Source: a virus
DNA: 64,000 bases
Virus record (IMG/VR): IMGVR_UViG_3300042446_001732
Span: 34,314-98,313 of that record
Reading direction: 5' to 3' (one strand)
Shown here piece after piece: positions 3,231 through 55,584 of the stretch. The notes beneath the pieces are model-generated. The model did not search any database. It was given only the letters and a program-made list of their open reading frames with translations, and was not told the origin of the DNA. Each line of letters starts with the position of its first letter. The first letter of the stretch is position 1. The position numbers were made by a program, and so were the translations under genes.

Positions 3231-3237
3231 GTAGTCC

Positions 3238-4116: not shown

Positions 4117-4118
4117 CA

Positions 4119-5189: not shown

Positions 5190-5192
5190 ATA
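5185..5192 (+). promoter_or_regulatory. Late promoter box AATAAATA
   Basis: AATAAATA overlaps the TAA stop (5187-5189) of the preceding gene and lies 21 nt before the gp13-like start, with a purine-rich AGGAACCGGAG between. Confidence 0.6.
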
Positions 5193-5212
5193 TAGGAACC
5201 GGAGTTTCCTTT

Positions 5213-5974
5213 ATGGCCGACAATACATTACCCCAGCTCAAGCAAGATCTTATTGATTATGTGGGGCTGCTGCTGGGCAATCAGATCATTGATCTCGAAC
5301 TAGATCCTGCACACTTTGAGGCTGCATATCAAAAGACCATTGGCACTTTTCGCCAACGAAGCAATGCAGCATATGAAGAAGCTTACATTTTCATGGAGCT
5401 GATTCGTGACGTAAACATTTACACATTGCCGCAAGAAGTCACAAGTGTGCGTCAGATTTTTCGCAGAACATTTGGTGATGCCACAGGACCGTTTGCTTCA
5501 AACTTTGATCCATTTGCACAGGCCAGCATCAACGTGTATCTCATGAACTTCAACGTGGCTGGTGGACTTGCTACCTATGACTTCTACTCACAGTATGTGG
5601 AACTAGCTGCCAAGATGTTTGGCGGATTCATGAACTATACCTGGAATCCTGTGACCAAGAAATTACAGCTCATACGAGATCCAAAAGGCACCGGGGAAAA
5701 TGTGCTGCTTTGGGCTTACCAGCTCAAGCCCGAGATTCAGTTGTTGACTGATCATCAAACTGGACAATGGATCCGTGACTACATGGTTGCTGTTTCCAAA
5801 ATGATCATTGGTGAGGCTCGCGAAAAGTTCTCAACCATTGCTGGCCCGCAGGGCGGAGGTAGTTTGAACGGTGCTGCAATGAAGTCAGAAGCACAGGCTC
5901 AGATGGATGCGCTGTTGGAACAACTCAAATTGTATGTAGATGGTGCGCAGCCATTGACCTTTGTAATTGGCTAA
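5213..5974 (+). CDS. Neck protein, gp13-like
   Basis: A 253-residue protein. The C-terminal block WIRDYMVAVSKMIIGEAREK, then FSTIAGPQGGGSLNGAAMKS and a closing amphipathic helix (AQMDALLEQLKLYVD), is the hallmark of T4-superfamily gp13, which with gp14 closes the packaged head and makes the tail docking site. The N terminus (LPQLKQDLIDYVGLLLGN) is a helix, as in homologues. The gene is preceded by a late box and a GGAG Shine-Dalgarno-like sequence. It lies 3.5 kb from gp14 and on the opposite strand, so the neck genes are split between strands. Confidence 0.8.
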   Translation: MADNTLPQLKQDLIDYVGLLLGNQIIDLELDPAHFEAAYQKTIGTFRQRSNAAYEEAYIFMELIRDVNIYTLPQEVTSVRQIFRRTFGDATGPFASNFDPFAQASINVYLMNFNVAGGLATYDFYSQYVELAAKMFGGFMNYTWNPVTKKLQLIRDPKGTGENVLLWAYQLKPEIQLLTDHQTGQWIRDYMVAVSKMIIGEAREKFSTIAGPQGGGSLNGAAMKSEAQAQMDALLEQLKLYVDGAQPLTFVIG

Positions 5975-6695: not shown

Positions 6696-6707
6696 TTGTG
6701 CTATACT
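6679..6707 (+). promoter_or_regulatory. Sigma70-type promoter of the nucleotide cassette
   Basis: Perfect -35 TTGACA (6679-6684), 17-bp spacer, TGC extension, -10 TATACT (6702-6707), all inside the end of the SGNH gene. The predicted start falls on the ATG at 6714, giving a leaderless transcript. Confidence 0.8.
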
Positions 6708-6713
6708 TGCAGT

Positions 6714-7235
6714 ATGCACCTAATGATTGACCTAGAAGGGCTGAGCACTGGCCCAGACACTACTATCCTTACTATTGCCGCACAAGCGTTTGATCCGTTT
6801 GGCAAAGGCTTCTATGAGCAATCTTACTATGCTAGAGTTACCTTGGAAAGTCAGGAAAATCGTGTAATTGATGATAACACTATTGCATGGTGGGCAACGC
6901 AACCTGAACACGCTAGAGAAGAAGCATTTGGAGAACAAGATCGAATTCCACTAGATGAAGCACTAGACGGATTAGGCCGACTAATTTGGAACAGCAAGAT
7001 GATTTGGGCACAAGGTCCAACTTATGACATGAATATTCTTGAGCATGCTTACAAGAGCTACAACAAGCCCCTGCCGTGGAAATACTACATGGTGCGAGAC
7101 AGTCGCACAGTGTTCAGCTTGTGGCCTGATCAGCCAATACCTCCAACTAGTCACCATGCTCTTGAAGACTGTCGCAGACAAATTGGTATGTTGCAAAACA
7201 CATTAACACATCTAAACGTAAAGGCATTGAAATGA
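6714..7235 (+). CDS. 3'-5' exonuclease, DexA/RNase T-like (DEDDh)
   Basis: A 173-residue protein, MHLMIDLEGLSTGPDTTIL. The DxE of exonuclease motif I (IDLEGL), the mid-protein GPTYDMNIL (motif II Asp) and HHALEDCRRQ (H-x4-D of motif III) identify a DEDDh 3'-5' exonuclease. The overall plan, including IAWWATQPEHAR, is like T4 DexA, which degrades DNA from 3' ends; a role in host DNA breakdown or end trimming is inferred. The start is placed at 6714 because the promoter's predicted initiation point is that A; an in-frame TTG at 6696 lies upstream of the -10. It overlaps the next gene by ATGA. Confidence 0.85.
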   Translation: MHLMIDLEGLSTGPDTTILTIAAQAFDPFGKGFYEQSYYARVTLESQENRVIDDNTIAWWATQPEHAREEAFGEQDRIPLDEALDGLGRLIWNSKMIWAQGPTYDMNILEHAYKSYNKPLPWKYYMVRDSRTVFSLWPDQPIPPTSHHALEDCRRQIGMLQNTLTHLNVKALK

Positions 7236-21506: not shown

Positions 21507-22649
21507 ATGACGAATTTTTACTGTGCAGCCCCTTGGCGTGGCCTGCATATCAATCCCCGAGGCGATGTAAAAACCTGTTGTGCTGGCGACCCCAACATGC
21601 TGGGCAATTTAAACACACAGACCATCGAACAGATCCTCAACAGTGATTTGATGACAGAAATTCGTGGCAGCATTGCCCAGGGCCAAAGTCATCAGTACTG
21701 TTCAAACTGTGTGCAAGCCGAGCGCCATGGCGGTGACTCCGAACGAGCCTGGCACAACCGTGACAATCCCAATTTTGATTTTGCCAAGGCCGGTGACAAA
21801 TATCACTATCCAGTCATTGTTGATATTCGTTGGAACACCACTTGTAATCTAAGTTGCAACTATTGTATGGAATATTGCAGTTCAAAATGGGCCGCGTTGA
21901 AAGGTATTCCTGTCAAGTCTGGTACTAGACCCTACTACGAACAAGTGTGTGATTTCATCGAGCAACATTATGAACACATTCACGAAGTGGCACTGGTAGG
22001 CGGCGAGCCGTTGTTGCTGCCAGAAAATAATCGCTTGCTGGACGTGATACCTAAAGATGCAGTTGTTACCTTGATTACCAATCTTACCGGCGATCTTGAA
22101 AACAATCGAATATTTCAAAAACTAGCAAAACGAAATCGTGTTGGCTGGAGTATGAGCTTTGACAACATAGGCCCAAGATTAGAATATGTTCGCTATGGCG
22201 CTGGTTGGGAAGAAATACAACGCAACCTTGCCCTGGTCAAAAATCTAATGACCACACAGGGACACTCAGGCGGCATACATGCAGTGTACAACATATACAA
22301 TGCCACACGCATCTGTGAACTGCGTGAGTTTGCCAAACAGACTGGAACCACTGTGCTATGGCAGAATCTTTTTCAACCCGACTACCTTGATCCATTCTTG
22401 CATGGTCCAACAGTTGCTGCCGAAGCAATTGCTGAGATTGAGCGCTTTTATGCATCAGGCATTGCTACCGCTGCTGAACGGGTGTTCTTTGACCGTGCAT
22501 TGCAGAGCTATCGTTCAGTGACCCACCCACGGCCCAATATTGAACATCAGTTTGCACAGCATATTCAACAGATTGAAAATCAGTACCACCCAGACTCAAA
22601 AGGACAGTTTACAAGTTTGTGGCCTGAACTAGCAACACTATGCAAATAA
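21507..22649 (+). CDS. Radical SAM enzyme with N-terminal twitch/SPASM-like cysteines
   Basis: A 380-residue protein. The radical SAM motif is CNLSCNYC near residue 110, followed by ALVGGEPLLLPENNR (GGEP) and LITNLTGD. Upstream, the first 80 residues carry CAAPWRGLHINPRGD, CCAGD and CSNC, the cysteine pattern of the SPASM/twitch auxiliary-cluster domain, placed before rather than after the core. Such architecture is common in large phages, substrate unknown. It overlaps the SGNH hydrolase gene by 10 nt. With iscU also in this genome, iron-sulphur supply for such enzymes is a possible link. Confidence 0.85.
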   Translation: MTNFYCAAPWRGLHINPRGDVKTCCAGDPNMLGNLNTQTIEQILNSDLMTEIRGSIAQGQSHQYCSNCVQAERHGGDSERAWHNRDNPNFDFAKAGDKYHYPVIVDIRWNTTCNLSCNYCMEYCSSKWAALKGIPVKSGTRPYYEQVCDFIEQHYEHIHEVALVGGEPLLLPENNRLLDVIPKDAVVTLITNLTGDLENNRIFQKLAKRNRVGWSMSFDNIGPRLEYVRYGAGWEEIQRNLALVKNLMTTQGHSGGIHAVYNIYNATRICELREFAKQTGTTVLWQNLFQPDYLDPFLHGPTVAAEAIAEIERFYASGIATAAERVFFDRALQSYRSVTHPRPNIEHQFAQHIQQIENQYHPDSKGQFTSLWPELATLCK

Positions 22650-33464: not shown

Positions 33465-34392
33465 AAGCTACTTGAGTAGCCTGCCAGCCAGAATCAATGG
33501 CCAAGAAAAAATTGATGCACTGACATATTTTGCTGAAGGCGCAGCCCGCTGCGGAGACTCAGCCGTGACCACACACAGTCAGCAATACGAACAGTGTGAT
33601 GTTGGAGCCATCATTGGCAATGCATTTGATGCCAATCCAGGCAAGGTAAATCTACCACATTACAAAGTTCGCAAGATGGTAATGGAAAAGCAGGCACAGC
33701 TGGGCAAATATTGGCTCAGCATTGACAGCAATGTGTTCATCTACAAAAACAGCTTGAATCCACACAAGTATCTGCGTTATAGTTTCAACGGTGTGTTCCC
33801 TGCAACAGGAATTTACTGCAATGACAACCCTGGCGACGAAAACTGGAACAACATACGCCGCGATTACAACATGGATCTAAAGCCTTGGAGGACTCAAGGC
33901 AATCACATTCTTATTACGCTGCAACGTCCCATGGGCTGGAGCATGCGAGGCGTTGATCTCATGAGCTGGCTCAAACAAACCCTTAGACAAATCAGAGAAA
34001 ACTCAGATCGTCCTATATTGATGCGCTGGCACCCTGGTGATTGGAAAGCATTTCCCAAATACAGCAGCACTCTAAACAAGTTTGGTGTTACACTGAGCCC
34101 ACAGGACAGACACATCACACAAGATCTAGTGAATTGCTGGGCAGTGGTTTGTCACAACTCAACTCCCAGTGCTGTGGCACCCATCGAAGGCATTCCTGCG
34201 TTTATCACAGATGATCCCAGTTATAGTCAAGGCGGCGATATTGCCAACACTGACTTTACTCAACTTGAGAACCCCAACTTGCCAGACAGAGAACAATGGA
34301 TTCGCAAGTTGGCACAGTGCCACTGGAGCTTTGAAGATGTGCGATCAGGCCGCTGCTGGGCTCACATGAGAAACTACGTCAAACTCTCTTAA
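33436..34392 (+). CDS. Capsule-type (KpsS-like) glycosyltransferase paralogue 2
   Basis: A 318-residue protein with HILITLQRPMGWSMRG, RPILMRWHPGDWKAF and AVVCHNSTPSAVAPIEGIPA, then QLENPNLPDREQWIRKLAQC and a terminal SFEDVRSGRCWAHM. The NS..S.A...G.PA element and the 'LENP.LP.RE.W' close match the paralogues at 32358 and 40751. It overlaps its upstream neighbour by 29 nt, and its 3' end overlaps by 48 bp the convergent reductase gene; no terminator separates the two operons. Confidence 0.65.
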   Translation: MHNGRPLIIKSYLSSLPARINGQEKIDALTYFAEGAARCGDSAVTTHSQQYEQCDVGAIIGNAFDANPGKVNLPHYKVRKMVMEKQAQLGKYWLSIDSNVFIYKNSLNPHKYLRYSFNGVFPATGIYCNDNPGDENWNNIRRDYNMDLKPWRTQGNHILITLQRPMGWSMRGVDLMSWLKQTLRQIRENSDRPILMRWHPGDWKAFPKYSSTLNKFGVTLSPQDRHITQDLVNCWAVVCHNSTPSAVAPIEGIPAFITDDPSYSQGGDIANTDFTQLENPNLPDREQWIRKLAQCHWSFEDVRSGRCWAHMRNYVKLS

Positions 34393-35175
34393 CTGTTTCA
34401 ACTGTTGATCATAGTCAGGAATACCAAAATCAAATTCCTGACGTGTGTCAACCAGCACCTTGTTGATATCTTTAGGCCCTTGTGTGGGCACAATGGTTTG
34501 GTTCAGTTGATAAATTTCGTTGATCTTGCACAGCAAATTGTATTTGTTGATGCGATTGTGATTGCTTACCAAATGATACACACCTGATATCTTGGGATCA
34601 CGCATGTAGAGATCAATACAACGTGCCAGCTCTAGTGTGGTAATACCATTCCACCAAGCATTAGTCCAACCTGGCAGTCTTAATCCGGTATTGCTCACTG
34701 CCCAGTGCAACAGTCCTGTTCCGTTTTTGAGTTCAGGACCAATAATACTCATTCTGAATGTGATGTCTTTGGTGTTGTTTACTTCACCAAAACTCTTGCT
34801 GCGACCATAAGCGTTTGTTTCAGTATGGGGGTCAGTTTCAGCATAATCGCCCTTGGCTCCATCGAACACACAGTCAGTGCTGAGATGAATCAATCGTGTC
34901 GAGGTATTCTGCAAACGATGTTCAATATAATGCGGCAACCAACTGTTGATCAACACAGCTTGGTCAGGCCTATCCGCACAGGGTCGAACCAGTAAGCCAA
35001 TGCAGTTGACCACAAAGTCAGTGTCGAGACTGTCAAAAAACTCAGACACTTGCGCAGTGTTCCCAACATCAAGTTCTGCTCTGGTCACAGCAGTCACAGC
35101 ATGTCCTTGCTGCTTTAAATATTTGACCACAACATGCCCGGCCATGCCCGCAGCACCTAAAACTGTTACTCGCAT
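34345..35175 (-). CDS. FnlB/RmlD-like sugar-nucleotide reductase
   Basis: A 276-residue short-chain dehydrogenase: TVLGAAGMAGHVVVKYL (Rossmann GxxGxxG), LIHLSTDCVFDG (catalytic Ser/Thr region) and NAYGRSKSFGE (YxxxK). It resembles RmlD and the reductase domain of FnlB/WbjC/CapF. In the neighbourhood of FnlA- and FnlC-like genes it would reduce the 4-keto intermediate on the way to UDP-N-acetyl-L-fucosamine. Unlike WbjC or CapF it lacks the C-terminal cupin domain. It is the last gene of the minus-strand operon. Confidence 0.75.
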   Translation of the reverse strand: MRVTVLGAAGMAGHVVVKYLKQQGHAVTAVTRAELDVGNTAQVSEFFDSLDTDFVVNCIGLLVRPCADRPDQAVLINSWLPHYIEHRLQNTSTRLIHLSTDCVFDGAKGDYAETDPHTETNAYGRSKSFGEVNNTKDITFRMSIIGPELKNGTGLLHWAVSNTGLRLPGWTNAWWNGITTLELARCIDLYMRDPKISGVYHLVSNHNRINKYNLLCKINEIYQLNQTIVPTQGPKDINKVLVDTRQEFDFGIPDYDQQLKQLREFDVVSHVSPAAA

Positions 35176-36152
35176 ATGAATCCACCTTTGATTAGCATTT
35201 GTTTGATTTCGTCACGGTTCATGATAAAAGTACGTGATGAAAATTCTTCCTGATCATACTCAGTCATGCTGGAATACTTTGATTCCAGCTCGGGTGTGCG
35301 CTTGACTGGCAATATCACAAAGTAATTTTTGTCGTAGTAGTAGCTCAAACAAGCTTCGTGCTTGCTGATCAGCATTTCGTCCAATTTTTCTCCGGGCTTG
35401 CTGCCAATCTCTTTGACTTCCACCTGTCCGTAGTGTTCCATGAGAACGCTGGCAATGTCTTTGATGTAGCAGGCCGGCATGTTCATTACAAAAGTTTCGC
35501 CGCCAATGGAATCTTCAGCTGCTTTGAACAATAGAGCAATGGCTTCTTCCAGGGTCAAAAAGAAACGAGTCATTTCAAGATCTGTGATAGTAACAGGACC
35601 ACCTGCTCGAATCTGCTCAACAAAGTAGGGAATGACACTGCCATTAGAACCCATGACATTACCGCCACGCACACAAACAAACTTGGTATGCGGGGTCAAG
35701 TCGTTGCCTTGGATAATCAGCTTTTCGCCCACAGCTTTGGTCATGCCATACAGGTTGAGTGGTTCAACTGCTTTGTCTGTGGAAACATCAATCACTTTGG
35801 CCACACCGTTTTCGATAGCAGCGTTTACAATGTTTGTTGTTCCTGTGATGTTTGTTTTGATTGCTTCTTGTGGATGATCTTCACAGATGGGCACATGTTT
35901 TAGCGCAGCCAAGTGAAACACAATGTCTGCGCCTTTCATGGCAAAACTCACAGCTTGGTAGTCACGCACGTCACCAACCACAAACTTTAGTCTGGGATCT
36001 TGGAATCGGCGTTGCATCAGCACCTGTTGCAGCTCTCCTCGACTGAAGCAAATGATCTCTCGGGGAGAATAGTTGGCCAGCAACATTCTGGTCAGGGTTT
36101 GTCCCCATGAGCCTGTTGCGCCTGATATGAATATTGTTTTTCCGTTAAACAT
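35166..36152 (-). CDS. UDP-GlcNAc 4,6-dehydratase (FnlA/CapE/PseB family)
   Basis: A 328-residue extended SDR enzyme: IFISGATGSWGQTLTRMLL, VVGDVRDYQAV, FHLAALKHVP, VIDVSTDKAVEPLNLYGMTK (active-site DK and YxxxK) and EIGSKPGEKLDEMLIS. It removes water from UDP-GlcNAc to give a 4-keto-6-deoxy sugar. By sequence alone it could be FnlA-like or PseB-like; the adjacent FnlB- and FnlC-like genes favour the FucNAc pathway, while no other pseudaminic acid gene is present. Overlaps both neighbours by 8-10 nt. Confidence 0.8.
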   Translation of the reverse strand: MFNGKTIFISGATGSWGQTLTRMLLANYSPREIICFSRGELQQVLMQRRFQDPRLKFVVGDVRDYQAVSFAMKGADIVFHLAALKHVPICEDHPQEAIKTNITGTTNIVNAAIENGVAKVIDVSTDKAVEPLNLYGMTKAVGEKLIIQGNDLTPHTKFVCVRGGNVMGSNGSVIPYFVEQIRAGGPVTITDLEMTRFFLTLEEAIALLFKAAEDSIGGETFVMNMPACYIKDIASVLMEHYGQVEVKEIGSKPGEKLDEMLISKHEACLSYYYDKNYFVILPVKRTPELESKYSSMTEYDQEEFSSRTFIMNRDEIKQMLIKGGFICE

Positions 36153-36762
36153 TACTGTCTTTCTTAATATGTAACACAGTTAGGCCGTGTATCTTTCTAT
36201 GTTTTGGTACACGATTTGTCCTGGATATTTCGCATGTGCCACCTAGTTCTTGTACTAATTCTGACATAAATTTATCACTACGACAAAGATGCCCAGCGGT
36301 AGCTGATGCTGGCTCAAAATCTACACCGTCGTCATCAATTTCGTCAGCCCAGACATATTCGACTGCAAATATGCCTGTAGTTTTTAAACTGCGAATAGCA
36401 TTTGCAAGCTCTATTTTTAATGGAACAGTCGGTACATGTTGCACTACGTTATGACAAATGATTAGATCGAAGTAGTCACTAGGTAACGTATCTACTTCGT
36501 CGATGTGATATACCTTTTTGCATATGGGTCTGACACGATCTAGTGCTGCTTGACTAATATCTAAAACGCTAATGTTAACTACCTCAGAGAAACCTTTAGT
36601 AACATATCCTAGCCCGCATCCTATTTCTAATACATGCATGCCTGGCGCTATAAATTCTTTTACATTTAAAAAATCTACTGTTTCGGTGTAGGCACAACCA
36701 GACAGTGTTCTTACATTACTGGCTGCGTGTTGTTGTTCCCAAAAATTTTGATTATGATCCAT
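36145..36762 (-). CDS. SAM-dependent methyltransferase
   Basis: A 205-residue class I methyltransferase: MHVLEIGCGLGYVTKGFSEV (motif I), ISVLDISQAALDRV (acidic motif II), DLIICHNVVQHVP (motif IV). It sits between the FnlC- and FnlA-like genes with overlaps on each side, so it probably acts on the same glycan. By eye its coding sequence is richer in A and T than its neighbours, suggesting later insertion into the operon. Substrate unknown. Confidence 0.8.
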   Translation of the reverse strand: MDHNQNFWEQQHAASNVRTLSGCAYTETVDFLNVKEFIAPGMHVLEIGCGLGYVTKGFSEVVNISVLDISQAALDRVRPICKKVYHIDEVDTLPSDYFDLIICHNVVQHVPTVPLKIELANAIRSLKTTGIFAVEYVWADEIDDDGVDFEPASATAGHLCRSDKFMSELVQELGGTCEISRTNRVPKHRKIHGLTVLHIKKDSNV

Positions 36763-37825
36763 GATTTCCTAACAAGATGTTTATCACTGTGTCGCTAACA
36801 TTGGTTCGCGCATATTCTGCAGGAATTGTCCAAGATCTATCACACATTTTCATAGCATTGAATCCTGCAACAATGTTGTTGGCGTCAAGCCCTGTTACAA
36901 TATTAGAGCCACACCATACAGTTTCAGGACGTTCAGTAGTTGATCGTATAGTTATAGTTGGTTTGTGAAACAAACACATTTCTTCTTGCACTGTGCCCGA
37001 ATCGCTGATGGCCATGTAACTGCGTTGTTCCAAGTTGACAAAATCAAAAAAGCCCATGGGTTCAGTTACAATGATACGATCACTCAGTTTTCTACCAGCC
37101 AGTCGTTGTTTTGTTTTTGGATGGCAACTGAACACAATAGGGTATTCCTGGCTGATGGTTTCAAGTGCCTGAACTATTTGGTCCAGGCGTTTGGGATCAT
37201 CTACATTTTCTGCTCGATGCAGGGTTGCAATAATGTATTGCCCTAGGGTCAAACCCAAGCGTGTCAGCACGTCACTTTTGGCAATGTCTGATCGATAGTG
37301 TTCCAGCACTTCTTTGATTGGGTTGCCAGTCACAAACACACGATTGTTTGCTGCGCCTTCTCGCAGTAGGTTCTGTCGACTGAGTTCTGTATACGGCAAA
37401 TTTACAGTGCTGATACTGTCTATCAAGCGACGATTCTTTTCTTCTGGCACCAGCATGTCGTAACAGCGGTTGCCTGCTTCCATGTGATACACAGGTATGC
37501 CCATGCGCTCACACACAATAGCACTCAAGCCAGAATTGGTATCGCCTAACACCAACACAGCGTCGGGCTTGAATTCTGACACATACTGTTCTACACCTGT
37601 CATGATAGCAGCCAGTTGCTGACCAATTGTGCCACGACTTTCCAGCACATGATCAGGTGCGCGAAGATTCAGCTGCTCAAAGAAAATGTCATTGAGTGTG
37701 GCATCGTAGTTTTGTCCAGTGTGCAACACTCTATGATCGCACACTTGATCCAACTTGGGCATGATCCTGCTCAAGCGAATGATTTCAGGACGTGTGCCCA
37801 GAATGGTCAATATCTTACGCTTCAT
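36752..37825 (-). CDS. UDP-sugar 2-epimerase, FnlC/WbjD-like (WecB family)
   Basis: A 357-residue protein from the ATG at 37825 (MKRKILTILGTRPEIIRLSR). Family marks are GTRPE, VLHTGQNYDATLND, VLVLGDTNS, VYHMEAGNRCYDMLVPEE, TLHRAENVD, and SDSGTVQEE near the end. The HMEAGNRC..LVPEE and NLPYTE elements fit the FnlC/CapG branch that inverts C2 of the 6-deoxy intermediate to give UDP-L-FucNAc, rather than plain UDP-GlcNAc 2-epimerase. An in-frame start 57 nt upstream would lie deep in the preceding gene and is not favoured. Confidence 0.8.
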   Translation of the reverse strand: MKRKILTILGTRPEIIRLSRIMPKLDQVCDHRVLHTGQNYDATLNDIFFEQLNLRAPDHVLESRGTIGQQLAAIMTGVEQYVSEFKPDAVLVLGDTNSGLSAIVCERMGIPVYHMEAGNRCYDMLVPEEKNRRLIDSISTVNLPYTELSRQNLLREGAANNRVFVTGNPIKEVLEHYRSDIAKSDVLTRLGLTLGQYIIATLHRAENVDDPKRLDQIVQALETISQEYPIVFSCHPKTKQRLAGRKLSDRIIVTEPMGFFDFVNLEQRSYMAISDSGTVQEEMCLFHKPTITIRSTTERPETVWCGSNIVTGLDANNIVAGFNAMKMCDRSWTIPAEYARTNVSDTVINILLGNHGS

Positions 37826-38342
37826 AAAACCCCACATAATAGTCATCAAACCCACGCAGATAAATTCTAGTGAATCCGTCAAAGTCCTCTGGAGTCCATA
37901 AACTTTTGTGTATGTCTAACTGATTGCCGTGGCACCACAATTCTGGATTGCTCACGTTTTCGTGATTCTCTGTCCAGATAGACTCAAGTGGTGTCAGCAA
38001 AAATATTTTCTTGGCAACCTGTGTTTTGCACTCTTCGATCAGTCTGAGACCCTGTTGTTTGTCAATGTGCTCGATAAAATCCAACATCAAGATATAATCA
38101 AATTGGTCTGCCACTATGTCTGCCAAGGGTGTGGTTTCAAGATCAGCCACAATGTCAGGCTCGACCCACTCCCAGCCATCCACGGTGACCACACAACTGC
38201 ACTGAAGCTTCAATGGGTCTGAATACATTTTTGGACCACAGCCTAGATCCAGCACTGTGCTGTTGTGCTCAACGGCACCCATCAAGTATCCCACTAGCAA
38301 ATCGTTAGAGAATGCCCGTTTTCCTTTAATCACATGTTTCAA
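37815..38342 (-). CDS. SAM-dependent methyltransferase-like protein
   Basis: A 175-residue protein: STVLDLGCGPKMYSDPL (motif I), CVVTVDGWEWVEPDIVADL (acidic motif II) and DYILMLDFIEHIDK (motif IV). This is a short class I methyltransferase of the type found in glycan loci. It is followed by an 11-nt overlap with the epimerase and preceded by a 17-nt overlap with a glycosyltransferase. Confidence 0.75.
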   Translation of the reverse strand: MKHVIKGKRAFSNDLLVGYLMGAVEHNSTVLDLGCGPKMYSDPLKLQCSCVVTVDGWEWVEPDIVADLETTPLADIVADQFDYILMLDFIEHIDKQQGLRLIEECKTQVAKKIFLLTPLESIWTENHENVSNPELWCHGNQLDIHKSLWTPEDFDGFTRIYLRGFDDYYVGFYEA

Positions 38343-45788: not shown

Positions 45789-47258
45789 ATGAAACAAGCA
45801 ACAATAATCATTCGAGACGAAGTCAATATCAAGATTGAGGGCCTGGACATTGACTGTAGGAAAAAACTAGTCAATACATTCAAATATGAAATTCCAGGCG
45901 CAAGATATCAGCCCGCAGTGAGACTGGGACGCTGGGATGGCAAGGTGGCTTATTTTCAACTGGGTGGATCCAGTTATATCAATTTACTGCCTGAGATCGT
46001 TCCCATTCTAGAACAATACGATTATGATATTGAGTTGGATGATCAGCGTGATTATTCCACTGTGTTTGATTTTGTGCAGGTCACAGAGGATTCATTTGCA
46101 CACAAGACTTGGCCTGCTGGGCATCCTGCTGTGGGACAGCCTATAATGCTGCGTGACTATCAAGTGGAGATTGTGAACAACTACCTGCAGAATCCGCAGT
46201 GCATACAAGAAGTGGCCACAGGCGCAGGCAAAACACTCATGACTGCTGCTTTGAGCCGGAGTGTGGAAGCATATGGTCGCAGTATCATTATTGTGCCCAA
46301 CAAGAGCTTGGTAACACAAACAGAAAAAGACTATGTTAATCTTGGCCTGGATGTGGGTGTGTATTTTGGTGATCAAAAAGACTATGACCGAACACACACC
46401 ATATGCACATGGCAAAGTCTAAACAACATGATGAAGAAGACCAAGTCGGGTGAAGCTGAAGTGGACATTCAGGACTTTATTGAAGGTGTGATCTGCGTGA
46501 TTGTGGACGAAGTACACATGGCCAAGGCAGATGCCTTAAAGACCTTGCTTACAGGGGTCATGGCTAGAGTGCCAATTCGGTGGGGTTTGACGGGAACTGT
46601 GCCCAAAGAAAAGTTTGAAAGCCAAAGTTTGTTAGTGAGTCTGGGGCCTGTTATCAGCAAGCTCAGTGCCAGCGAACTGCAAGATCGTGGCGTGCTGGCA
46701 CAGTGTCATGTGAACATTGTGCAACTGATAGACCATGTGGAGTACGCTGAATATCAAAGTGAGCTAAAGTACTTGCTGGAAGAAAAAGGCCGCCTGGATG
46801 CCATGGCCGGATTGATCCTGCAGATAAACGAAACAGGCAACACCTTGGTCTTGGTAGATCGTGTAGCAGCAGGCACTGAGCTGGTGTCAAGACTGGGAGA
46901 CAAAGCAGTGTTTGTGTCAGGCGCAACCAAGTCTAAAACACGTCAAGATGAATATGACATGGTAGCAGACTCTGTAGACAAGATCATTGTGGCCACGTAT
47001 GGTGTGGCTGCTGTGGGCATCAACATACCTCGAATCTTTAATCTTGTGCTGATTGAACCAGGCAAATCATTTGTTAGAGTTATACAGTCAATTGGTCGTG
47101 GTATTAGAAAAGCCGAAGACAAAGACCATGTGCAGATCTGGGACATAACCAGCACATGCAAATTTGCCAAGCGTCACTTGACCAAGCGCAAACAGTTCTA
47201 CAAGGAAGCCAACTATCCGTTCACAGCAGAGAAACTAGACTGGATGAAGATAGCATAA
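45789..47258 (+). CDS. uvsW: UvsW-like superfamily 2 helicase
   Basis: A 489-residue protein with an N-terminal DNA-binding region (ARYQPAVRLGRWDGKVAYF), then helicase motif I EVATGAGKTLMT, motif Ia VPNKSLVTQT, motif II VIVDEVHMAK, motif III WGLTGTVP, and motif VI VIQSIGRGIRKA. The whole order and length match T4 UvsW, which unwinds R-loops and branched recombination intermediates and helps switch from origin-dependent to recombination-dependent replication. Apparently leaderless. The stop overlaps the next start (TAATG). Confidence 0.92.
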   Translation: MKQATIIIRDEVNIKIEGLDIDCRKKLVNTFKYEIPGARYQPAVRLGRWDGKVAYFQLGGSSYINLLPEIVPILEQYDYDIELDDQRDYSTVFDFVQVTEDSFAHKTWPAGHPAVGQPIMLRDYQVEIVNNYLQNPQCIQEVATGAGKTLMTAALSRSVEAYGRSIIIVPNKSLVTQTEKDYVNLGLDVGVYFGDQKDYDRTHTICTWQSLNNMMKKTKSGEAEVDIQDFIEGVICVIVDEVHMAKADALKTLLTGVMARVPIRWGLTGTVPKEKFESQSLLVSLGPVISKLSASELQDRGVLAQCHVNIVQLIDHVEYAEYQSELKYLLEEKGRLDAMAGLILQINETGNTLVLVDRVAAGTELVSRLGDKAVFVSGATKSKTRQDEYDMVADSVDKIIVATYGVAAVGINIPRIFNLVLIEPGKSFVRVIQSIGRGIRKAEDKDHVQIWDITSTCKFAKRHLTKRKQFYKEANYPFTAEKLDWMKIA

Positions 47259-48160
47259 TGAGTACGGATTTTCTTGTAGACGACGGGGTGTTTATACCCA
47301 TGCTAAACGACGCTGCCCGAAATCAGTTTTATAAACAAGCACTGGATCGTGCCGCAGCAGGTCAAGTGGTCTGCGACATCGGTGCTGGCACTGGGTTTCT
47401 CAGTGTGCTGGCGATCGAAGCAGGTGCGTCACATGTAATTGCTGTGGAACGAAATCCAGACAGATTTGCATACCTAAATCAGACTATAAAAAATCTAGGA
47501 CTTGAAAACCGAATAGAAACACACTGTGTTGATTTCTTAGACAGTGATATCCAAGCTGATGTTTATGTCAGTGAAACAATCAACACACAAATATTTGGCG
47601 AGGACATGACTAGACTCAGTAATCATGTGGCACATCGTGGCAGCCAATTTATACCTGCTGGAGTTAGAATCTGGGCCGAAGTTTATGTTGATCATGCGGT
47701 GTTTGTGCTGGACCTAACGCACAATGAATCATACGAGTTTGATCCCGGTATTGATGTAAACTCAGAATTTGTCAACAACGTCAACTCAGACTTTCAAAAG
47801 CAATACAACTTACAGGAAACGGTGTTCAAGGCCAATCAGTTCAACCGACTGTTTACCATGCTTGATCGTTTTACAGATCTGAAACTGAACAAGATTAGCG
47901 AAACCACTCCAATCACTGTGAATTTTGACCAGTACACCAACGAAAACAACATTGAAATTGTGATACCCAACAGCCAGGTGCCCCGGGGAATGCCAATGGT
48001 GGTGTTAAAATGGGAAATGTTTTATCAAGACATTGTGCTGCACAGCAACAAGTGCTGGTTTGGTAATGTTGCTAAAAATATACGTGACCAATTTCGCACA
48101 GGCAACGACATTGTTTTTCGGTATGATCCTGCCATACGCAACTGGAGATTGAGCTACTAG
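47258..48160 (+). CDS. Protein arginine methyltransferase-like enzyme
   Basis: A 300-residue protein from the ATG at 47258 (overlapping the uvsW stop; a longer frame upstream lies inside uvsW). FIPMLNDAARNQFYKQAL, then VCDIGAGTGFLSVLAIEAGA, SHVIAVERNPDRFAYL and VYVSETINTQIFGED follow the PRMT order: 'ML.D..R...Y..A', motif I, post-I acidic Glu, and a double-Glu loop. The C-terminal part is a beta-barrel-like region (FIPAGVRIWAEVYV, MVVLKWEMFYQDIVLHS). Arginine methylation of phage or host protein is inferred; a general class I methyltransferase remains possible. Confidence 0.65.
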   Translation: MSTDFLVDDGVFIPMLNDAARNQFYKQALDRAAAGQVVCDIGAGTGFLSVLAIEAGASHVIAVERNPDRFAYLNQTIKNLGLENRIETHCVDFLDSDIQADVYVSETINTQIFGEDMTRLSNHVAHRGSQFIPAGVRIWAEVYVDHAVFVLDLTHNESYEFDPGIDVNSEFVNNVNSDFQKQYNLQETVFKANQFNRLFTMLDRFTDLKLNKISETTPITVNFDQYTNENNIEIVIPNSQVPRGMPMVVLKWEMFYQDIVLHSNKCWFGNVAKNIRDQFRTGNDIVFRYDPAIRNWRLSY

Positions 48161-48699: not shown

Positions 48700-48960
48700 A
48701 TGGGACAGCTCAAACCAGGTGCCACTTACATTTACGAACGCAATGGCAACACGGTGTTCAGAAGAGAGTTTGGCGCAGATCCCAGCACACGTGAAGTAAT
48801 GGGCTACGATTATCGCACCAGTGATGGCAGACCCTTGCACGATCATTTAATGGATTCCAAGATGTGGGGCGAGATTCACCAAATGGCCAAAACCAATCCC
48901 ACTTTACAAGATGCTATAGATCGTGTTATTATGATTTATCAACTGAGCAAAACAACATGA
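48700..48960 (+). CDS. Small conserved-type protein
   Basis: An 86-residue protein from the ATG at 48700: MGQLKPGATYIYERNGNTVF, REFGADPSTREVMGYDYRTS, then LMDSKMWGEIHQMAKTNPTL and a C-terminal helix. Overlaps the gp62-like gene by ATGA. Similar short proteins lie next to replication genes in T4-like marine phages; function unknown. Confidence 0.7.
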   Translation: MGQLKPGATYIYERNGNTVFRREFGADPSTREVMGYDYRTSDGRPLHDHLMDSKMWGEIHQMAKTNPTLQDAIDRVIMIYQLSKTT

Positions 48961-49403
48961 GTGACAAGTTACACATTGGCAATGAGATGCGACAATTAGA
49001 TCTCAAGAACAGAGACTTCTACGACAGCTTGGATGCAGAAGAACGCAAAAAGTTCAGCACATTTCTCATGCTGCGTTGGAGTAGTTGTGTTGAAGGATCA
49101 CAGGAATTGCAAGAATACTATGTGCAAAGCTGCAATCACTATCTCAACAAGCACTTTTTTACTCTGAGTCGCCATCCCAAACTGCAATGGTTGTGTTCCA
49201 CTGCTGTTAGTCCAGGCATGGGCACGCCTCGACACAACTGGATTGCGCCCAAAAAGAAAGAAGCAGGTGCCAGTGCCAAACGCAAAGCACTGGCCGCGAT
49301 GTTTCCGCATTACAAAGACGACGAGATTGATGTCATGATGCAAATAGTAACGCAAAAAGAAATTGACGCTTACCACAAGAGCGCTGGCTTTGATAAAAAA
49401 TGA
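48957..49403 (+). CDS. Clamp-loader small subunit, gp62-like (probable)
   Basis: A 148-residue protein, MSDKLHIGNEMRQLDLKNRD. The plan 'FYDSL..EE.KKFS.F.MLRW.S', ending in YHKSAGFDKK, with YYVQSCNHYLNKHFFTLSRH between, is that of gp62 of T4-like cyanophages. gp62 pairs with gp44 to load the gp45 clamp. No gp44 gene is in this window, so the partner must be elsewhere. Start chosen at the ATGA overlap with the preceding gene. Confidence 0.65.
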   Translation: MSDKLHIGNEMRQLDLKNRDFYDSLDAEERKKFSTFLMLRWSSCVEGSQELQEYYVQSCNHYLNKHFFTLSRHPKLQWLCSTAVSPGMGTPRHNWIAPKKKEAGASAKRKALAAMFPHYKDDEIDVMMQIVTQKEIDAYHKSAGFDKK

Positions 49404-50119
49404 TTCAACAGTTGGTAGTCAATGGTTGCAGTTACATGGACATGTACGCACAGGGCAACGGGCATGCGGACCTGGCACAACAACTTGGTATTGCCAATTA
49501 TTCCTGCCTGGCCATTGGTGGCAGTGCAAACTCTCGTATCATACGCAGCACTCTCAAACACAGTTATCAGGCCGCAGTGCCTACATTTTATTTACTGGGC
49601 ATGACATTTCTCAGCAGGCTTGAAATACCTATATTGGGTCAGGATCCCAGCCGTGAGTTTGAGGGCACCTGGACCAATCCTCAGAATCAACAATTTAGAT
49701 CGCAATGGATACCAAACTGGACTGATCGAGATACCAAACAATGGATAGGACTCAAACTCAAAAGTGAATTTCAGAGCATTGTTGATCGACTGGAAGATTT
49801 GATGTACCGTATGTTGAGTTTGCAGGCCAGCCTGACTGCTCGTGGTCATCGTGTGTTGATGTATCAACAAGCAGACAACATTTATCAGGAGTTTATTGAA
49901 GACTCTCGTTTTGAACTTTTTAAAAACAATGTTGGCATCAAAGACGGATTTGTCTGGCGATCAATTGCGTGGCAACACGGACATAAGGTTGCTGCTGTGA
50001 ATTATTCCGAAACTGATCAATATGTGCCACCAGACATGGCTCACCCTTTGCCCGGACATCATTTGATGATCAATACTCATTTGACACAGTATATCAAAGA
50101 TGCTAAAATACTAGCATGA
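49400..50119 (+). CDS. SGNH/GDSL-type hydrolase-like protein (copy 3)
   Basis: A 239-residue protein: LVVNGCSYMDMYAQGNGHA (candidate nucleophile Ser11), YSCLAIGGSANSRII (the conserved Gly/Asn block), FYLLGMTFLSRL, and PPDMAHPLPGHHLMI with the Asp-x-x-His pair. The Gly-Ser-Ala-Asn block after GCSY makes this the clearest SGNH member of the three. It overlaps the gp62-like gene by ATGA and ends by overlapping the next gene by ATGA; its 3' part contains the next promoter. Confidence 0.75.
   Translation: MIQQLVVNGCSYMDMYAQGNGHADLAQQLGIANYSCLAIGGSANSRIIRSTLKHSYQAAVPTFYLLGMTFLSRLEIPILGQDPSREFEGTWTNPQNQQFRSQWIPNWTDRDTKQWIGLKLKSEFQSIVDRLEDLMYRMLSLQASLTARGHRVLMYQQADNIYQEFIEDSRFELFKNNVGIKDGFVWRSIAWQHGHKVAAVNYSETDQYVPPDMAHPLPGHHLMINTHLTQYIKDAKILA
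50081..50109 (+). promoter_or_regulatory. Sigma70-type promoter with extended -10
   Basis: TTGACA (50081-50086), 17 bp, TGC, TAAAAT (50104-50109), inside the SGNH gene. Predicted start is the ATG at 50116; leaderless. Confidence 0.75.
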
Positions 50120-50790
50120 CATTTGCCTGTGCCTACTGCAAGAAAACTTTTGTAAAAGAAACGTCTATAGCGGTGCATGTGTGCGAGCCCAAGCGCCGTG
50201 CATTGCAAAAGGACGAACCTGGGGTGAGATTGGGGTTTCAGGCCTATTTGCGATTTTATGAAACCATGCAAGGATCGTCTGGTAACAAGACCTATGAAGA
50301 CTTTGCTGAGTCAGCTTACTATCGAGCCTTTGTGAAGTTTGGGCGTTACTGTGTGGACACCCGCACAATCAATCCAGCTCAGTTCATGTTGTGGCTACTA
50401 AAGGCACAAAAAAAGATTGACTACTGGTGCAGTGACAAGGTCTATACAGAATATTTGTTGTACTACCTGCAGACGGAGGCAGTGGATGATGCTCTGGCTC
50501 GAGCAATTGAATACAGCATGACCTGGCAAGAAAACACAGGCTATCCTGCACATGACTGTTTGCGTTACGGCAATACCAATGCAGCATGTTATGCTGTTAC
50601 ATCAGGAAGAGTAAGTCCCTGGGTGATTTACAACTGCGAGTCAGGCCAGAAGTTTTTGAGCGGTCTGGATCCCACTCAGGTGGCCATGATCTGGAGTTAC
50701 ATCGACAGTGATGCCTGGCAAAAACGTTTTAGAGATCGTCCCGAAGATCAAGCATATGCACAAGAAATTTTAACCCGAGCAGGATGGTAA
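50116..50790 (+). CDS. Zinc-finger-type conserved phage protein
   Basis: A 224-residue protein with an N-terminal finger CAYCKKTFVKETSIAVHVC (C-x2-C ... H-x3-C). The rest is helical: GFQAYLRFYETMQG, FVKFGRYCVDTRTINPAQFM, VYTEYLLYYLQTEAVDDAL, and ends EILTRAGW. This architecture is seen in T4-like marine phages, function unknown; a nucleic-acid-binding role is inferred from the finger. Leaderless start at the promoter's initiation point. Confidence 0.7.
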   Translation: MTFACAYCKKTFVKETSIAVHVCEPKRRALQKDEPGVRLGFQAYLRFYETMQGSSGNKTYEDFAESAYYRAFVKFGRYCVDTRTINPAQFMLWLLKAQKKIDYWCSDKVYTEYLLYYLQTEAVDDALARAIEYSMTWQENTGYPAHDCLRYGNTNAACYAVTSGRVSPWVIYNCESGQKFLSGLDPTQVAMIWSYIDSDAWQKRFRDRPEDQAYAQEILTRAGW

Positions 50791-50791
50791 C

Positions 50792-51142
50792 ATGATTCAA
50801 GGAATAATACCCGGCACAGGGTTAGTAACCACAGGCGGCAGCTCTATGCAGCCGTATATAAGCCCAGGATCGCAGAGTGCTGGAATATTACGGTACAATA
50901 CAAGTTTAAAAAATATAGAAGTGTATGACGGTGTCAGCTGGCTAACGTTGTCCGGCAGCCATACTCAGATAAGTCTTGACGGTCCAACACAGGAAGCTGT
51001 CCAGTGGGTTCGTCGTCGAATGGAACAAGAAAAACGCCTGGAAGAATTGGCCAGACAACATCCTGCTGTGGCTGATGCAGCGGCCGCAGTGGCTCAGGCG
51101 CAGGAACAACTGGACATAGTGACTGCTTTGGTACAACTATGA
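50792..51142 (+). CDS. Short fibre-like/structural-type protein
   Basis: A 116-residue protein: SGNQ-type beta start MIQGIIPGTGLVTTGG, QSAGILRYNTSLKNIEVYDG with SWLTL, then a charged helical tail (VRRRMEQEKRLEELARQHP). The 'G.lRYNt....ievydG..W..l' element is common in phage tail-fibre and virion proteins. It lies 1 nt after the preceding gene and overlaps the next by ATGA, which is an odd place for a fibre part. Confidence 0.6.
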   Translation: MIQGIIPGTGLVTTGGSSMQPYISPGSQSAGILRYNTSLKNIEVYDGVSWLTLSGSHTQISLDGPTQEAVQWVRRRMEQEKRLEELARQHPAVADAAAAVAQAQEQLDIVTALVQL

Positions 51143-51708
51143 GCGCAGACATTGATATAGACGTGCCCAACAGAGATGTTGTGTTGCAACTGATACAGCA
51201 TGTGCCTGCACAACAAAGCACTGGACGCAAGCACAACTCGGGCATTTATGTCACAGACATTCCGCGGGATGTGGTCAACGGACATGCAGCACTGGATTAC
51301 CAGTCAGCAGAACAACGTGGCTATTTCAAAATAGACCTGTTGAACATGAGTGTTTATAACTTGGTCCACGGCCCCGAACACTATGAAACGTTACTGGCAG
51401 CTACACCGCCTTGGAGTCGACTGTGGACAGATCGTGCCTGGGCCAGTCAACTGGTACACGTGGGCAACTATGCGGACCTGCTGCGAGAAATGAAGCCAGA
51501 CTCAATTCCTAGAATGGCTGCATTTATCAGCATTATTAGGCCGGGCAAAGCTCACCTACAAGGACAACCTTGGGATCAAGTGTTTGCTGAAGTCTGGAAC
51601 GGGGATGATAGTCGGGGCTATACCTTTAAAAAGGCACATGCTATTAGCTACGCTGCCTTGGTGGCCTTGCACATGAATTTACTCAATACGCCGGACCAAG
51701 GTAATTGA
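51139..51708 (+). CDS. Miniature DNA polymerase III alpha-like protein
   Basis: A 189-residue protein that keeps, in order, the core motifs of C-family polymerases: DIDID (residues 4-8, like PDIDIDF, palm Asp pair), KHNSGIYV (31-38, like H.AGVVI), GYFKIDLL (61-68, like KFDFLGL, third palm Asp at 66), MKPDSIPRMAAFISIIRPG (118-136, like LKPDSFED..A..ALYRPGP), and YTFKKAHAISYA (161-172, like F.KSHA.AYA). Normal DnaE is about 1,160 residues; the PHP, thumb, clamp-binding and OB parts are absent. Whether it polymerises is unknown. I recall similarly annotated short genes in T4-like cyanophages. Confidence 0.65.
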   Translation: MSADIDIDVPNRDVVLQLIQHVPAQQSTGRKHNSGIYVTDIPRDVVNGHAALDYQSAEQRGYFKIDLLNMSVYNLVHGPEHYETLLAATPPWSRLWTDRAWASQLVHVGNYADLLREMKPDSIPRMAAFISIIRPGKAHLQGQPWDQVFAEVWNGDDSRGYTFKKAHAISYAALVALHMNLLNTPDQGN

Positions 51709-52056
51709 TTTTCGCTTGGACTTTTTGCGGGCAATGTCCATAAGGCTACAAATGGGACCGTGCAAGATTTCCAGGTCCTTGTTGGCAAATGTTCTCAAAG
51801 TAACACGGAATTGATCCCATTCTTTGCGCAGGAAAATGTTTATAGGAATGCTTCTGTTGCTTTCCCACCACCATGTGCCGGCTAGTTCTAAAAATAACAT
51901 CTTGTCAGACTGATCTATCACTGATCCAAAGTCGTAAATAGTTGTCACAATGTCATCACGGTTTTGTACCACTCCTACGTACTCTTGATTTGCGTAAACG
52001 CACAAGGTAATAAAGGGGTACTTTTCCGTTAATTTTTCAAATATGTTATTGCCCAT
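51679..52056 (-). CDS. Conserved-type phage protein of unknown function
   Basis: A 125-residue protein: MGNNIFEKLTEKYPFITLCV, YANQEYVGVVQNRDDIVTTI, then LAGTWWWESNRSIPINIFLR, and a basic end (ARKKSKRKSITLVRRIE). The WWWESNR.IPI segment is highly conserved-looking and recalls a hypothetical protein of T4-like cyanophages. Basic tail suggests nucleic-acid contact. Convergent with the mini-polymerase gene (30-bp overlap) and divergent from the fibre gene; a late box ends 7 nt before its ATG. Confidence 0.7.
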   Translation of the reverse strand: MGNNIFEKLTEKYPFITLCVYANQEYVGVVQNRDDIVTTIYDFGSVIDQSDKMLFLELAGTWWWESNRSIPINIFLRKEWDQFRVTLRTFANKDLEILHGPICSLMDIARKKSKRKSITLVRRIE

Positions 52057-53189: not shown

Positions 53190-54161
53190 ATGCTGGATAT
53201 CTTAGATTACTTACCCGCCAAGCGAAAAGTCAGTCCCAGCGGCTGGATCAGCTTTAATGCGGTATGCTGTGATCACAATGGCAACAGTCCAGATCGACGC
53301 AGTCGCGGCGGCATCAAAACAAACGAACAGGGTTGGAGCTATCATTGCTTCAACTGTGGATACACTGCCAGCTTTATTATTGGACGCACAATAAGTTACA
53401 AGGCTCGGAATCTATTGGGTTGGATGGGTGTTCCAGAACGGGAAATTGACCTAGTTAACTTGGAAAGTCTAAGACATCGAAGCATACACGGACTGCTAGA
53501 AGATCGACAAGCAACCGACACATTGGTTCAGGGAATTGAATTTGAAGAATGGGAATTACCTCCAGGCGCAGAGTTTTTGACAGCAGAATTTGCAGTGCAG
53601 TGGGAGTACTTACAAAGTAGATGTGTGCCATCTGACTTTCCGTTTATGGTGCAGGCTCAGTCCAAGCGACCAGGTGTGATAGTTCCGTTCACATACAACA
53701 ACAAAATTGTGGGCAGTACTGTTCGATTCTTGGACAATCACAATCCTCGATATCTAAACAACATGCAACCAGGTTATGTGTTTGGCGCAGACTTGTTGCA
53801 CAACAACTGGACTCATGTGATAGTGACAGAAGGTATCTTTGACGCACTGTCAATTGGAGGTCTAGCACTCATGCACAACACAGTGAATGATGCTCAAGCA
53901 AAATTGATACGCCGATTGGGCAAGGAAGTTACTGTGGTACCCGACCAGGATTCTGCAGGTATTGAACTGATAGATCGTGCTGTGGAACTGAACTGGGCAG
54001 TAAGCATACCTGCCTGGCCTGCAGACGTCAAAGATGTCAACGATGCTGTGAAGAAATATGGTAGGCTAGGCGCACTGATAACTATCATGCAAGCTAGAGA
54101 AACATCCAAGATCAAAATTGAATTACGAAAGAAACAACTTGTTAAAAGACTACGGAACTGA
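53190..54161 (+). CDS. DNA primase, gp61-like
   Basis: A 323-residue primase. The N-terminal zinc-binding domain has CCDHNGNSPDRRSRGG and YHCFNCGYTASF. The Toprim core has VIVTEGIFDALSI (Glu), VTVVPDQDSAG (DxD) and DVKDVNDAV. It makes RNA primers for lagging-strand synthesis as part of the T4-type primosome with gp41, whose gene overlaps its 3' end by 44 nt. The length is close to T4 gp61 (342 residues). Its message is predicted to begin exactly at the ATG. Confidence 0.88.
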   Translation: MLDILDYLPAKRKVSPSGWISFNAVCCDHNGNSPDRRSRGGIKTNEQGWSYHCFNCGYTASFIIGRTISYKARNLLGWMGVPEREIDLVNLESLRHRSIHGLLEDRQATDTLVQGIEFEEWELPPGAEFLTAEFAVQWEYLQSRCVPSDFPFMVQAQSKRPGVIVPFTYNNKIVGSTVRFLDNHNPRYLNNMQPGYVFGADLLHNNWTHVIVTEGIFDALSIGGLALMHNTVNDAQAKLIRRLGKEVTVVPDQDSAGIELIDRAVELNWAVSIPAWPADVKDVNDAVKKYGRLGALITIMQARETSKIKIELRKKQLVKRLRN

Positions 54162-55584
54162 TGTACAACGACTGTTCCTGGAGATGATACTTCAGGATGC
54201 AGAAAGTTATGTTCGTGTACAGAACATCTACAATCCAGAAAACTTTGATCGTAGTGTAAGACCTGCGGCCGAGTTTATCAAGACACACAGTGTGGACCAC
54301 GGCACCTTGCCCACTGCTGCACAGATCGCTGCAACCACAGGGATCAAACTACAGCACCTGGACGAATTCAATGAAGGACATCATGCCTGGTTCATGGAGG
54401 AGTTTGAAAACTTTACCAAACGTCAGGAACTGGAACGTGCTATTTTGAAAGCAGCTGACTTGCTGGAAAAGGGTGACTATGATCCTGTGGAAAAACTGAT
54501 CAAGGATGCTGTGCAGATCAGTCTAACCAAGGACATGGGCACGGACTATTTTGATGATCCCAGTGCTCGTATCAACAAGTACTTCAATGCTGGAGGACAG
54601 GTTAGCACAGGATGGCCACAAATGGATCGATTGTTGTATGGTGGATTCAGTCGTGGAGAGCTGAACATTTTTGCAGGCGGATCAGGCTCGGGCAAAAGTC
54701 TTGTGATGATGAACATTGCACTAAACTGGTTGCAGCAGGGTCTAAGTGGTGTATACATCACCCTGGAACTTTCTGAAGAGCTAACCAGTTTACGAAGTGA
54801 TGCCATGCTGACCAGCATGAGCACCAAAGAGATCCGCAAGGACATTGAGACCACAGCACTCAAGGTCAAAATGATTCAAAAGAAGTCTGGACAGTATCGT
54901 GTGAAGGGACTGCCGGCACAAAGCAATGTGAATGACATTCGTGCTTACTTGAAAGAAGTGCAGATACAAACAGGTATCCGGGTGGACTTTATTATGGTAG
55001 ACTACCTGGACTTGGTCATGCCTGTGAGTGCCAAAGTCAGTCCCAACGACTTGTTTGTGAAAGACAAGTATGTATCGGAAGAACTGCGTAACCTGGCCAA
55101 AGAACTAGGTATCCTGATGGTAACTGCAAGTCAGTTGAATCGAAGTGCTGTGGAAGAAATTGAATTTGATCACAGCCATATTTCAGGTGGTATCAGCAAA
55201 ATCAACACAGCAGACAATGTGTTTGGTATCTTTACAAGTCGTGCCATGAAAGAGCGTGGCAAGTATCAGATACAATGTATGAAATCTCGAAGCTCGACCG
55301 GCGTTGGTCAAAAAATTGATTTGGAGTATAACATTGAAACCATGCGTATTACTGACGAAGGCGGGGACGAAAACGGTTATAACAAACCACAAAGTTCAAT
55401 CATGGACAGTATCAAGGCCAAGAGCCAGGTTGTTGCAAGCTCCGACGCCACTTGGGCTGTCCCCACAGGCGGCACACATGTCTGGGACAAGCCCATGGTC
55501 AAACACGAAGATGTTGCCAAGGTCAGCGGCGACGTTCAAAGTGCCAAGCTAAAACAAATGCTCGGCAAGATCAAATCAGGTTAA
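54118..55584 (+). CDS. Replicative DNA helicase, gp41-like (DnaB family)
   Basis: A 488-residue protein if begun at the TTG at 54118; a TTG at 54139 (LLKDYGTDVQRLF) is an equally plausible start, and no ATG or GTG occurs before residue 24. Both lie inside the primase gene. Walker A is FAGGSGSGKSLVMM, Walker B IMVDYLDLVMP, then LMVTASQLNRSA and the C-terminal KSRSSTGVGQKIDL arginine-finger region of the DnaB/RecA-type fold. It unwinds the fork ahead of the polymerase. Unusual non-ATG start in a key replication gene. Confidence 0.9.
   Translation: MNYERNNLLKDYGTDVQRLFLEMILQDAESYVRVQNIYNPENFDRSVRPAAEFIKTHSVDHGTLPTAAQIAATTGIKLQHLDEFNEGHHAWFMEEFENFTKRQELERAILKAADLLEKGDYDPVEKLIKDAVQISLTKDMGTDYFDDPSARINKYFNAGGQVSTGWPQMDRLLYGGFSRGELNIFAGGSGSGKSLVMMNIALNWLQQGLSGVYITLELSEELTSLRSDAMLTSMSTKEIRKDIETTALKVKMIQKKSGQYRVKGLPAQSNVNDIRAYLKEVQIQTGIRVDFIMVDYLDLVMPVSAKVSPNDLFVKDKYVSEELRNLAKELGILMVTASQLNRSAVEEIEFDHSHISGGISKINTADNVFGIFTSRAMKERGKYQIQCMKSRSSTGVGQKIDLEYNIETMRITDEGGDENGYNKPQSSIMDSIKAKSQVVASSDATWAVPTGGTHVWDKPMVKHEDVAKVSGDVQSAKLKQMLGKIKSG

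Follow-up and report, generated by a model that had tools for sequence, protein, structure and literature searches.

Truncated forms of the α subunit of DNA polymerase III (Pol III α) were noted early in jumbo phages, as a 172-aa protein in CBB (PMC5259590) and as gp316 in Atu_ph07 (PMC6102473). Iyer et al. 2021 (PMC7824862) then reported that the group 2.2 jumbo phages have a 'phage-specific minimal version' of Pol III α, in which an N-terminal, NTP-binding protein and a C-terminal, Mg/template-binding protein are encoded by distant genes; the Rak2-like phages and Atu_ph07 are such phages. (In Atu_ph07, gp316 is the N-terminal half, or N half, and FDI40_gp074 is the C-terminal half, or C half.) Neither activity data on the split Pol III α in PMC7824862 nor an experimental test of the 2021 prediction in the literature searched was found. 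The DnaE of Microbacterium phage Krampus and its relatives is likewise encoded by two genes, with the PHP domain in one gene and everything from the palm onward in the adjacent next gene (2474-5825 in the Krampus sequence). This arrangement was rejected as a parallel, because there the palm is intact within one protein.

The gene considered here, at 51139-51708 (+), lies in a 64,000-nucleotide stretch of viral DNA (the window; bases 34314-98313), taken from a virus record of 98,313 bases. It is a further member of the split Pol III α already described in 2021, and it has in common with the system of PMC7824862 a stand-alone protein that carries the Mg-binding Asp strands together with the template-binding part. 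To that description we add the exact position of the cut, the loss of the thumb, the retention of a steric-gate His, the replacement of a palm Arg (R390) by Glu or Asp, and the replisome neighbourhoods of both halves. These details refine the 2021 description; the kind of system is unchanged.

The C half and its match to DnaE

The product of 51139-51708 is a 189-aa protein that contains the catalytic palm strands and a shortened fingers region, and its ORF, PHROGs family, alignments and structural model identify it as the C half of the split enzyme. The ORF lies exactly where the first-pass annotation had placed it, and its start codon overlaps the stop codon of an upstream ORF (ATGA). The five motifs of C-family polymerases that had been read in the protein are also present in the order claimed: DIDID (residues 4-8; 51148-51162), KHNSGIYV (31-38, with KHNSG, 31-35, at 51229-51243), K64-I-D66 (51328-51336), MKPDS...IIRPG (118-136; 51490-51549 when the Lys at 137 is included) and FKKAHAISYA (163-172, with FKKAH, 163-167, at 51625-51639), all on the + strand. 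The estimate that about 85% of the usual length has been dropped is equally sound, as 189 of the 1160 aa of E. coli DnaE amount to 16%.

Within PHROGs, the protein falls in phrog_11778, 'DNA polymerase' (residues 3-183, E=1.1e-49), and there is a weak match to full-length phage DnaE, phrog_405, around the RPG region (E=1.2e-4). A tblastn search with the protein matched 90 phage records, and among the matches listed nearly all are jumbo phages; at least 595 stretches in IMG/VR are related to it, and its best homologues in named phages are 39-44% identical. When one genome per bacterial or archaeal species was scanned, no close relatives were seen in cellular genomes at the sensitivity used, and a scan for relatives with the Vibrio phage protein as query gave no matches. 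Detection of the relationship to DnaE requires profiles; when Pfam and the PDB were searched with the single sequence, it was not found. The PF07733 profile, which had been suggested as a check, matches neither the 189-aa protein nor anything else in its contig, and in complete relatives the matches to PF07733 sit in another gene (see below). The finger-domain profile PF17657 gives weak matches only, in 9 of 23 family members.

The residue-by-residue correspondence was obtained by aligning the C half with four full-length DnaE proteins using hhalign (E=2e-4 in a single comparison). In this alignment K64 and D66, the third catalytic Asp, fall on E. coli K553 and D555 (K553-F-D555), H32 and G35 fall on H511 and G514, and the RPG motif, which includes R134 and P135, falls on R639-P640-G641; D4, D6 and D8 are assigned to D401, D403 and D405 by motif, D4 and D6 being the metal-binding pair and D8 the additional Asp specific to DnaE. 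The positions that are invariant in the full-length DnaE proteins aligned (D401, D403, D405, H511, G514, K553, D555, L557, R639, P640, F756 and H760) fall on invariant positions of the C half. D405 is conserved in DnaE and is Asn in PolC (PMC3919608, the source of the E. coli numbering); the C half keeps Asp8 at this position and is therefore of the DnaE type. H167 aligns with E. coli H760, which touches the deoxyribose and is presumed to act as the steric gate (PMC8485763). In M. smegmatis, R432 sits beside the template backbone (PMC12641269); judged by its spacing from the motifs, Arg12, which is invariant across the C-half family, would occupy the same position and so lie on the template side.

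Much of DnaE is missing between and around these motifs. The spacer from DIDID to KHNSG is ~22 residues in the C half versus ~105 in E. coli, and the thumb is lost, with a short stretch in its place. From RPG to F-K-x-x-H there are ~27 residues in the C half versus ~115 in E. coli; ~90 residues have been removed between RPG and the O-helix, and the fingers stretch that contains YQEQ and R709...GKK is largely deleted. The 189 aa are taken up by the aligned span between the catalytic strand and the O-helix region, which leaves no room for the PHP, thumb and (HhH)2 domains. Because the protein starts at the catalytic strand of the palm, it also lacks the palm segment with the GRGS loop, whose strand is carried by a separate protein. 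The expectation that the fold would be that of a DnaE palm is borne out by the AF2 model of the 189-aa protein (pLDDT 91.7, pTM 0.82): in a Foldseek search of the PDB the first 13 matches are all C-family polymerases, with a best probability of 1.00 and a sharp drop thereafter, at E-values that are modest (best 1.9e-3 for the C half and 0.16 for the partner).

The active site is invariant across the family. None of Asp4, Asp6, Asp8 and Asp66 changes in a set of 71 sequences, made up of the 189-aa protein and homologues from uncultured phages, or in an alignment that includes eight named phages; this agrees with the first-pass annotation, in which all three catalytic carboxylates appeared to be kept and a survey of homologues was called for. 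Lys64, His32, Gly35 and the steric-gate His are also invariant over the 71 sequences, many of which are 35-45% identical to the 189-aa protein. The 70 homologues are nearly equal in size and in the position of their ends, and dN/dS is 0.04-0.19 against those relatives for which synonymous change is unsaturated.

The partner protein and the cut within the palm

In four complete jumbo phages PF07733 gives one match each, which covers positions ~16-98 only and lies in a gene different from that of the C half. This gene encodes the partner, a ~170-aa protein with a G-x-GRGS nucleotide-binding loop. When the partner is aligned with DnaE by hhalign (E=3e-9), the match ends at the residue equivalent to E. 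coli N393, and in IMG/VR each of the 80 partner ORFs has its stop 0-8 residues after an EFL[KR]-like sequence. Since the partner ends at the N393 equivalent in all cases, the cut falls, on the DnaE sequence, after '...FLN' and before 'PDFDVDF'. The C half itself is absent from all 80 of these loci, within flanks of up to 4 kb. Modelled alone, the partner has no strands in residues 134-172, the end that carries GRGS; such a strandless stretch of ~40 residues is as expected if it completes a sheet with the C half.

One position within the partner departs from DnaE. R390 and R709 lie near the incoming triphosphate in C-family structures, and R390, which is invariant in the full-length enzymes aligned, is replaced by Glu or Asp in every partner. 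Given this replacement, together with the large deletion of the YQEQ/R709...GKK stretch in the C half, the binding of the incoming nucleotide may differ from that in DnaE.

The two halves occur together. Both are present in eight of eight named phages (Atu_ph07, Phosso, Paride, PBECO4, XaC1, Vibrio phage 2.275.O, SCTP-2 and KP13-7) and in 12 of 13 uncultured records of >200 kb; the halves are WPK40247.1 and WPK40317.1 in Paride and XYS97594.1 and XYS97297.1 in Phosso. The 12 records are G001, which is 209 kb long and has a C half with 77% identity to the 189-aa protein, 7 of 8 IMG/VR records of >220 kb that were selected by the partner, and 4 of 4 records of >200 kb that were selected by the C half. 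The sole exception to co-occurrence, G011, is also without DnaB; therefore, the part of the genome with the C half is probably missing from its contig. (A weak partner-like match in another record, G009, with E=8.8e-6, has no GRGS motif in three frames and was set aside.)

This evidence comes from the relatives; the 98-kb contig itself holds the C half only. A profile search of the contig revealed no partner, and a GRGS pattern search gave unrelated matches only. This absence is expected, because the contig extends only 12.3 kb downstream of the C half, versus the ~97-98 kb that separate the C half from the downstream partner in the near relatives G001 and G014. Of the other records tested, 11 of 11 have a family B polymerase (PF00136), as do the group 2.2 phages (PMC7824862). 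PF00136 has no match in the 98-kb contig; in G001 and G014 a distance of ~140-145 kb separates the C half from the family B gene downstream of it, and with a shared gene order that gene would lie past the point where this contig stops.

Gene neighbourhoods of the two halves

The genes around the C half are held in a nearly fixed order. A small convergent gene at 51679-52056 (-), phrog_11637, which has no Pfam match, overlaps the 3' end of the polymerase half, and this convergent pairing is found in 144 of 144 loci, which suggests a functional or regulatory link between the two. Downstream lie a DnaG-type primase with a Toprim domain (53190-54161, +), a neighbour in 105 of 110 loci, and a replicative helicase of the DnaB/gp41 type (54118-55584, +), a neighbour in 32 of 33 close loci. 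The upstream ORF whose stop overlaps the polymerase start (50792-51142, +) is present in 54 of 60 close loci and in 0 of 68 distant ones. The partner gene has a replisome neighbour as well, a clamp loader that is found downstream in 56 of 62 loci and is also annotated beside the partner in PBECO4, Paride and Atu_ph07.

Farther upstream of the polymerase half are two other recurrent genes without a Pfam match: phrog_11058 (50116-50790, +; 124 of 128 loci), whose product has a CxxC, zinc-finger-like start, and phrog_11758 (48954-49403, +; 117 of 128 loci). A methyltransferase gene at 47255-48157 (+), directly after a UvsW-like helicase, is unusual for a phage; the best PDB matches of its product are protein arginine methyltransferases, with E-values down to 2e-8. 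The window also encodes a Rv2179c-like 3'-5' exonuclease (6696-7235, +; PF16473, E=6e-33), a possible nuclease partner, and two radical-SAM proteins (3238-4116 and 21507-22649, +), one of which has a SPASM domain. A sugar-nucleotide cluster at 34345-37882 (-), with an RmlD-like reductase, a polysaccharide-synthesis dehydratase and a UDP-GlcNAc 2-epimerase, may allow the phage to build or alter surface glycans.

A probable two-subunit core and the alternatives to it

In this jumbo phage, a minimal polymerase core of the DnaE type is probably divided between two subunits, of which the 189-aa protein is one. Within this core the C half would contribute the catalytic strand with DIDID, the second Asp strand with KID, and the shortened fingers with the steric-gate His; the partner would contribute the GRGS loop for the nucleotide phosphates and the helices that precede it. 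Association of the two proteins would complete a Pol-beta-like palm. Such a core would share D401/D403/D555, D405, K553, the H760 steric gate and the RPG fingers motif with bacterial DnaE; unlike bacterial DnaE, it has its palm spread over two genes and would work without a PHP, thumb, HhH/clamp-binding, OB or C-terminal domain. It would act alongside the family B replicase of the phage; the synthesis of short tracts, at the fork or during repair, is its most likely role. The first-pass annotation had described the protein as a palm-finger remnant of DnaE: its DnaE type and its catalytic carboxylates stand, but it is not a self-contained miniature, since the GRGS loop resides in a second protein. 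Several points count against the polymerase reading. The replacement of R390 in every partner and the large deletion in the fingers call for caution, a core with no thumb would have a weaker grip on DNA, and a second polymerase is not obviously needed when a family B polymerase is present in every large relative tested.

These same features lend some weight to other functions. A thumbless two-subunit C-family core whose palm Arg has become Glu or Asp could have a distinct chemistry or substrate, an outcome that we consider possible but unlikely; in that case primer extension or hand-off beside the primase, or untemplated addition, may be its task while the family B enzyme copies the genome. 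Comparably doubtful is the proposal, close to the repurposed nucleotidyltransferase of the first-pass annotation, that the assembled halves have given up templated polymerization and act as a nucleotidyltransferase, for example in end addition or in the making or extension of short primers. The Asp residues that bind metal and the His that contacts the sugar have been retained, while the thumb, much of the fingers and Arg390 are lost or changed, the primase adjoins the gene in most loci, and relatives have a family B replicase, all of which would suit such an enzyme. However, RPG, F-K-x-x-H and the putative template-side Arg12 are invariant, which suggests that a base-pairing site is still under selection. 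A catalytically silent component of the phage replisome, with a structural or regulatory role, is improbable, as is a decoy for polymerase partners of the host. That neither half has all of the nucleotide-binding elements, and that R390 is replaced in the partner, would fit such a role, but the four Asp residues, Lys64 and the steric-gate His do not vary; the earlier suggestion of a decoy is disfavoured by this invariance of the active site. The regions of DnaE that bind the clamp, tau and epsilon are missing from the C half, which would therefore be poorly equipped as a decoy.

An active, stand-alone 189-aa mini-polymerase, as had also been suggested, is very improbable. The C half is confidently folded alone in the model and keeps the catalytic residues, but it is without the GRGS loop and its strand, which are invariant in full-length DnaE, and that loop is maintained in a separate, co-occurring and equally conserved protein. 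Least credible of all is the idea that the phage took up a full-length DnaE gene which has since been decaying, and the conservation data refute it. That only 16% of the DnaE length is left would fit decay; the near-constant size and ends of the homologues, the low dN/dS, the invariant active site and the fixed gene order do not, and they uphold the earlier argument against simple decay.

If the two halves do form an active enzyme, nature would have built its palm from two chains, with the break separating the nucleotide-binding loop from the catalytic strand, and to our knowledge no C-family polymerase core would be smaller. The minimum needed for a working DnaE would then become directly testable, and the finding would be relevant to the retention of a second polymerase lineage by many jumbo phages.
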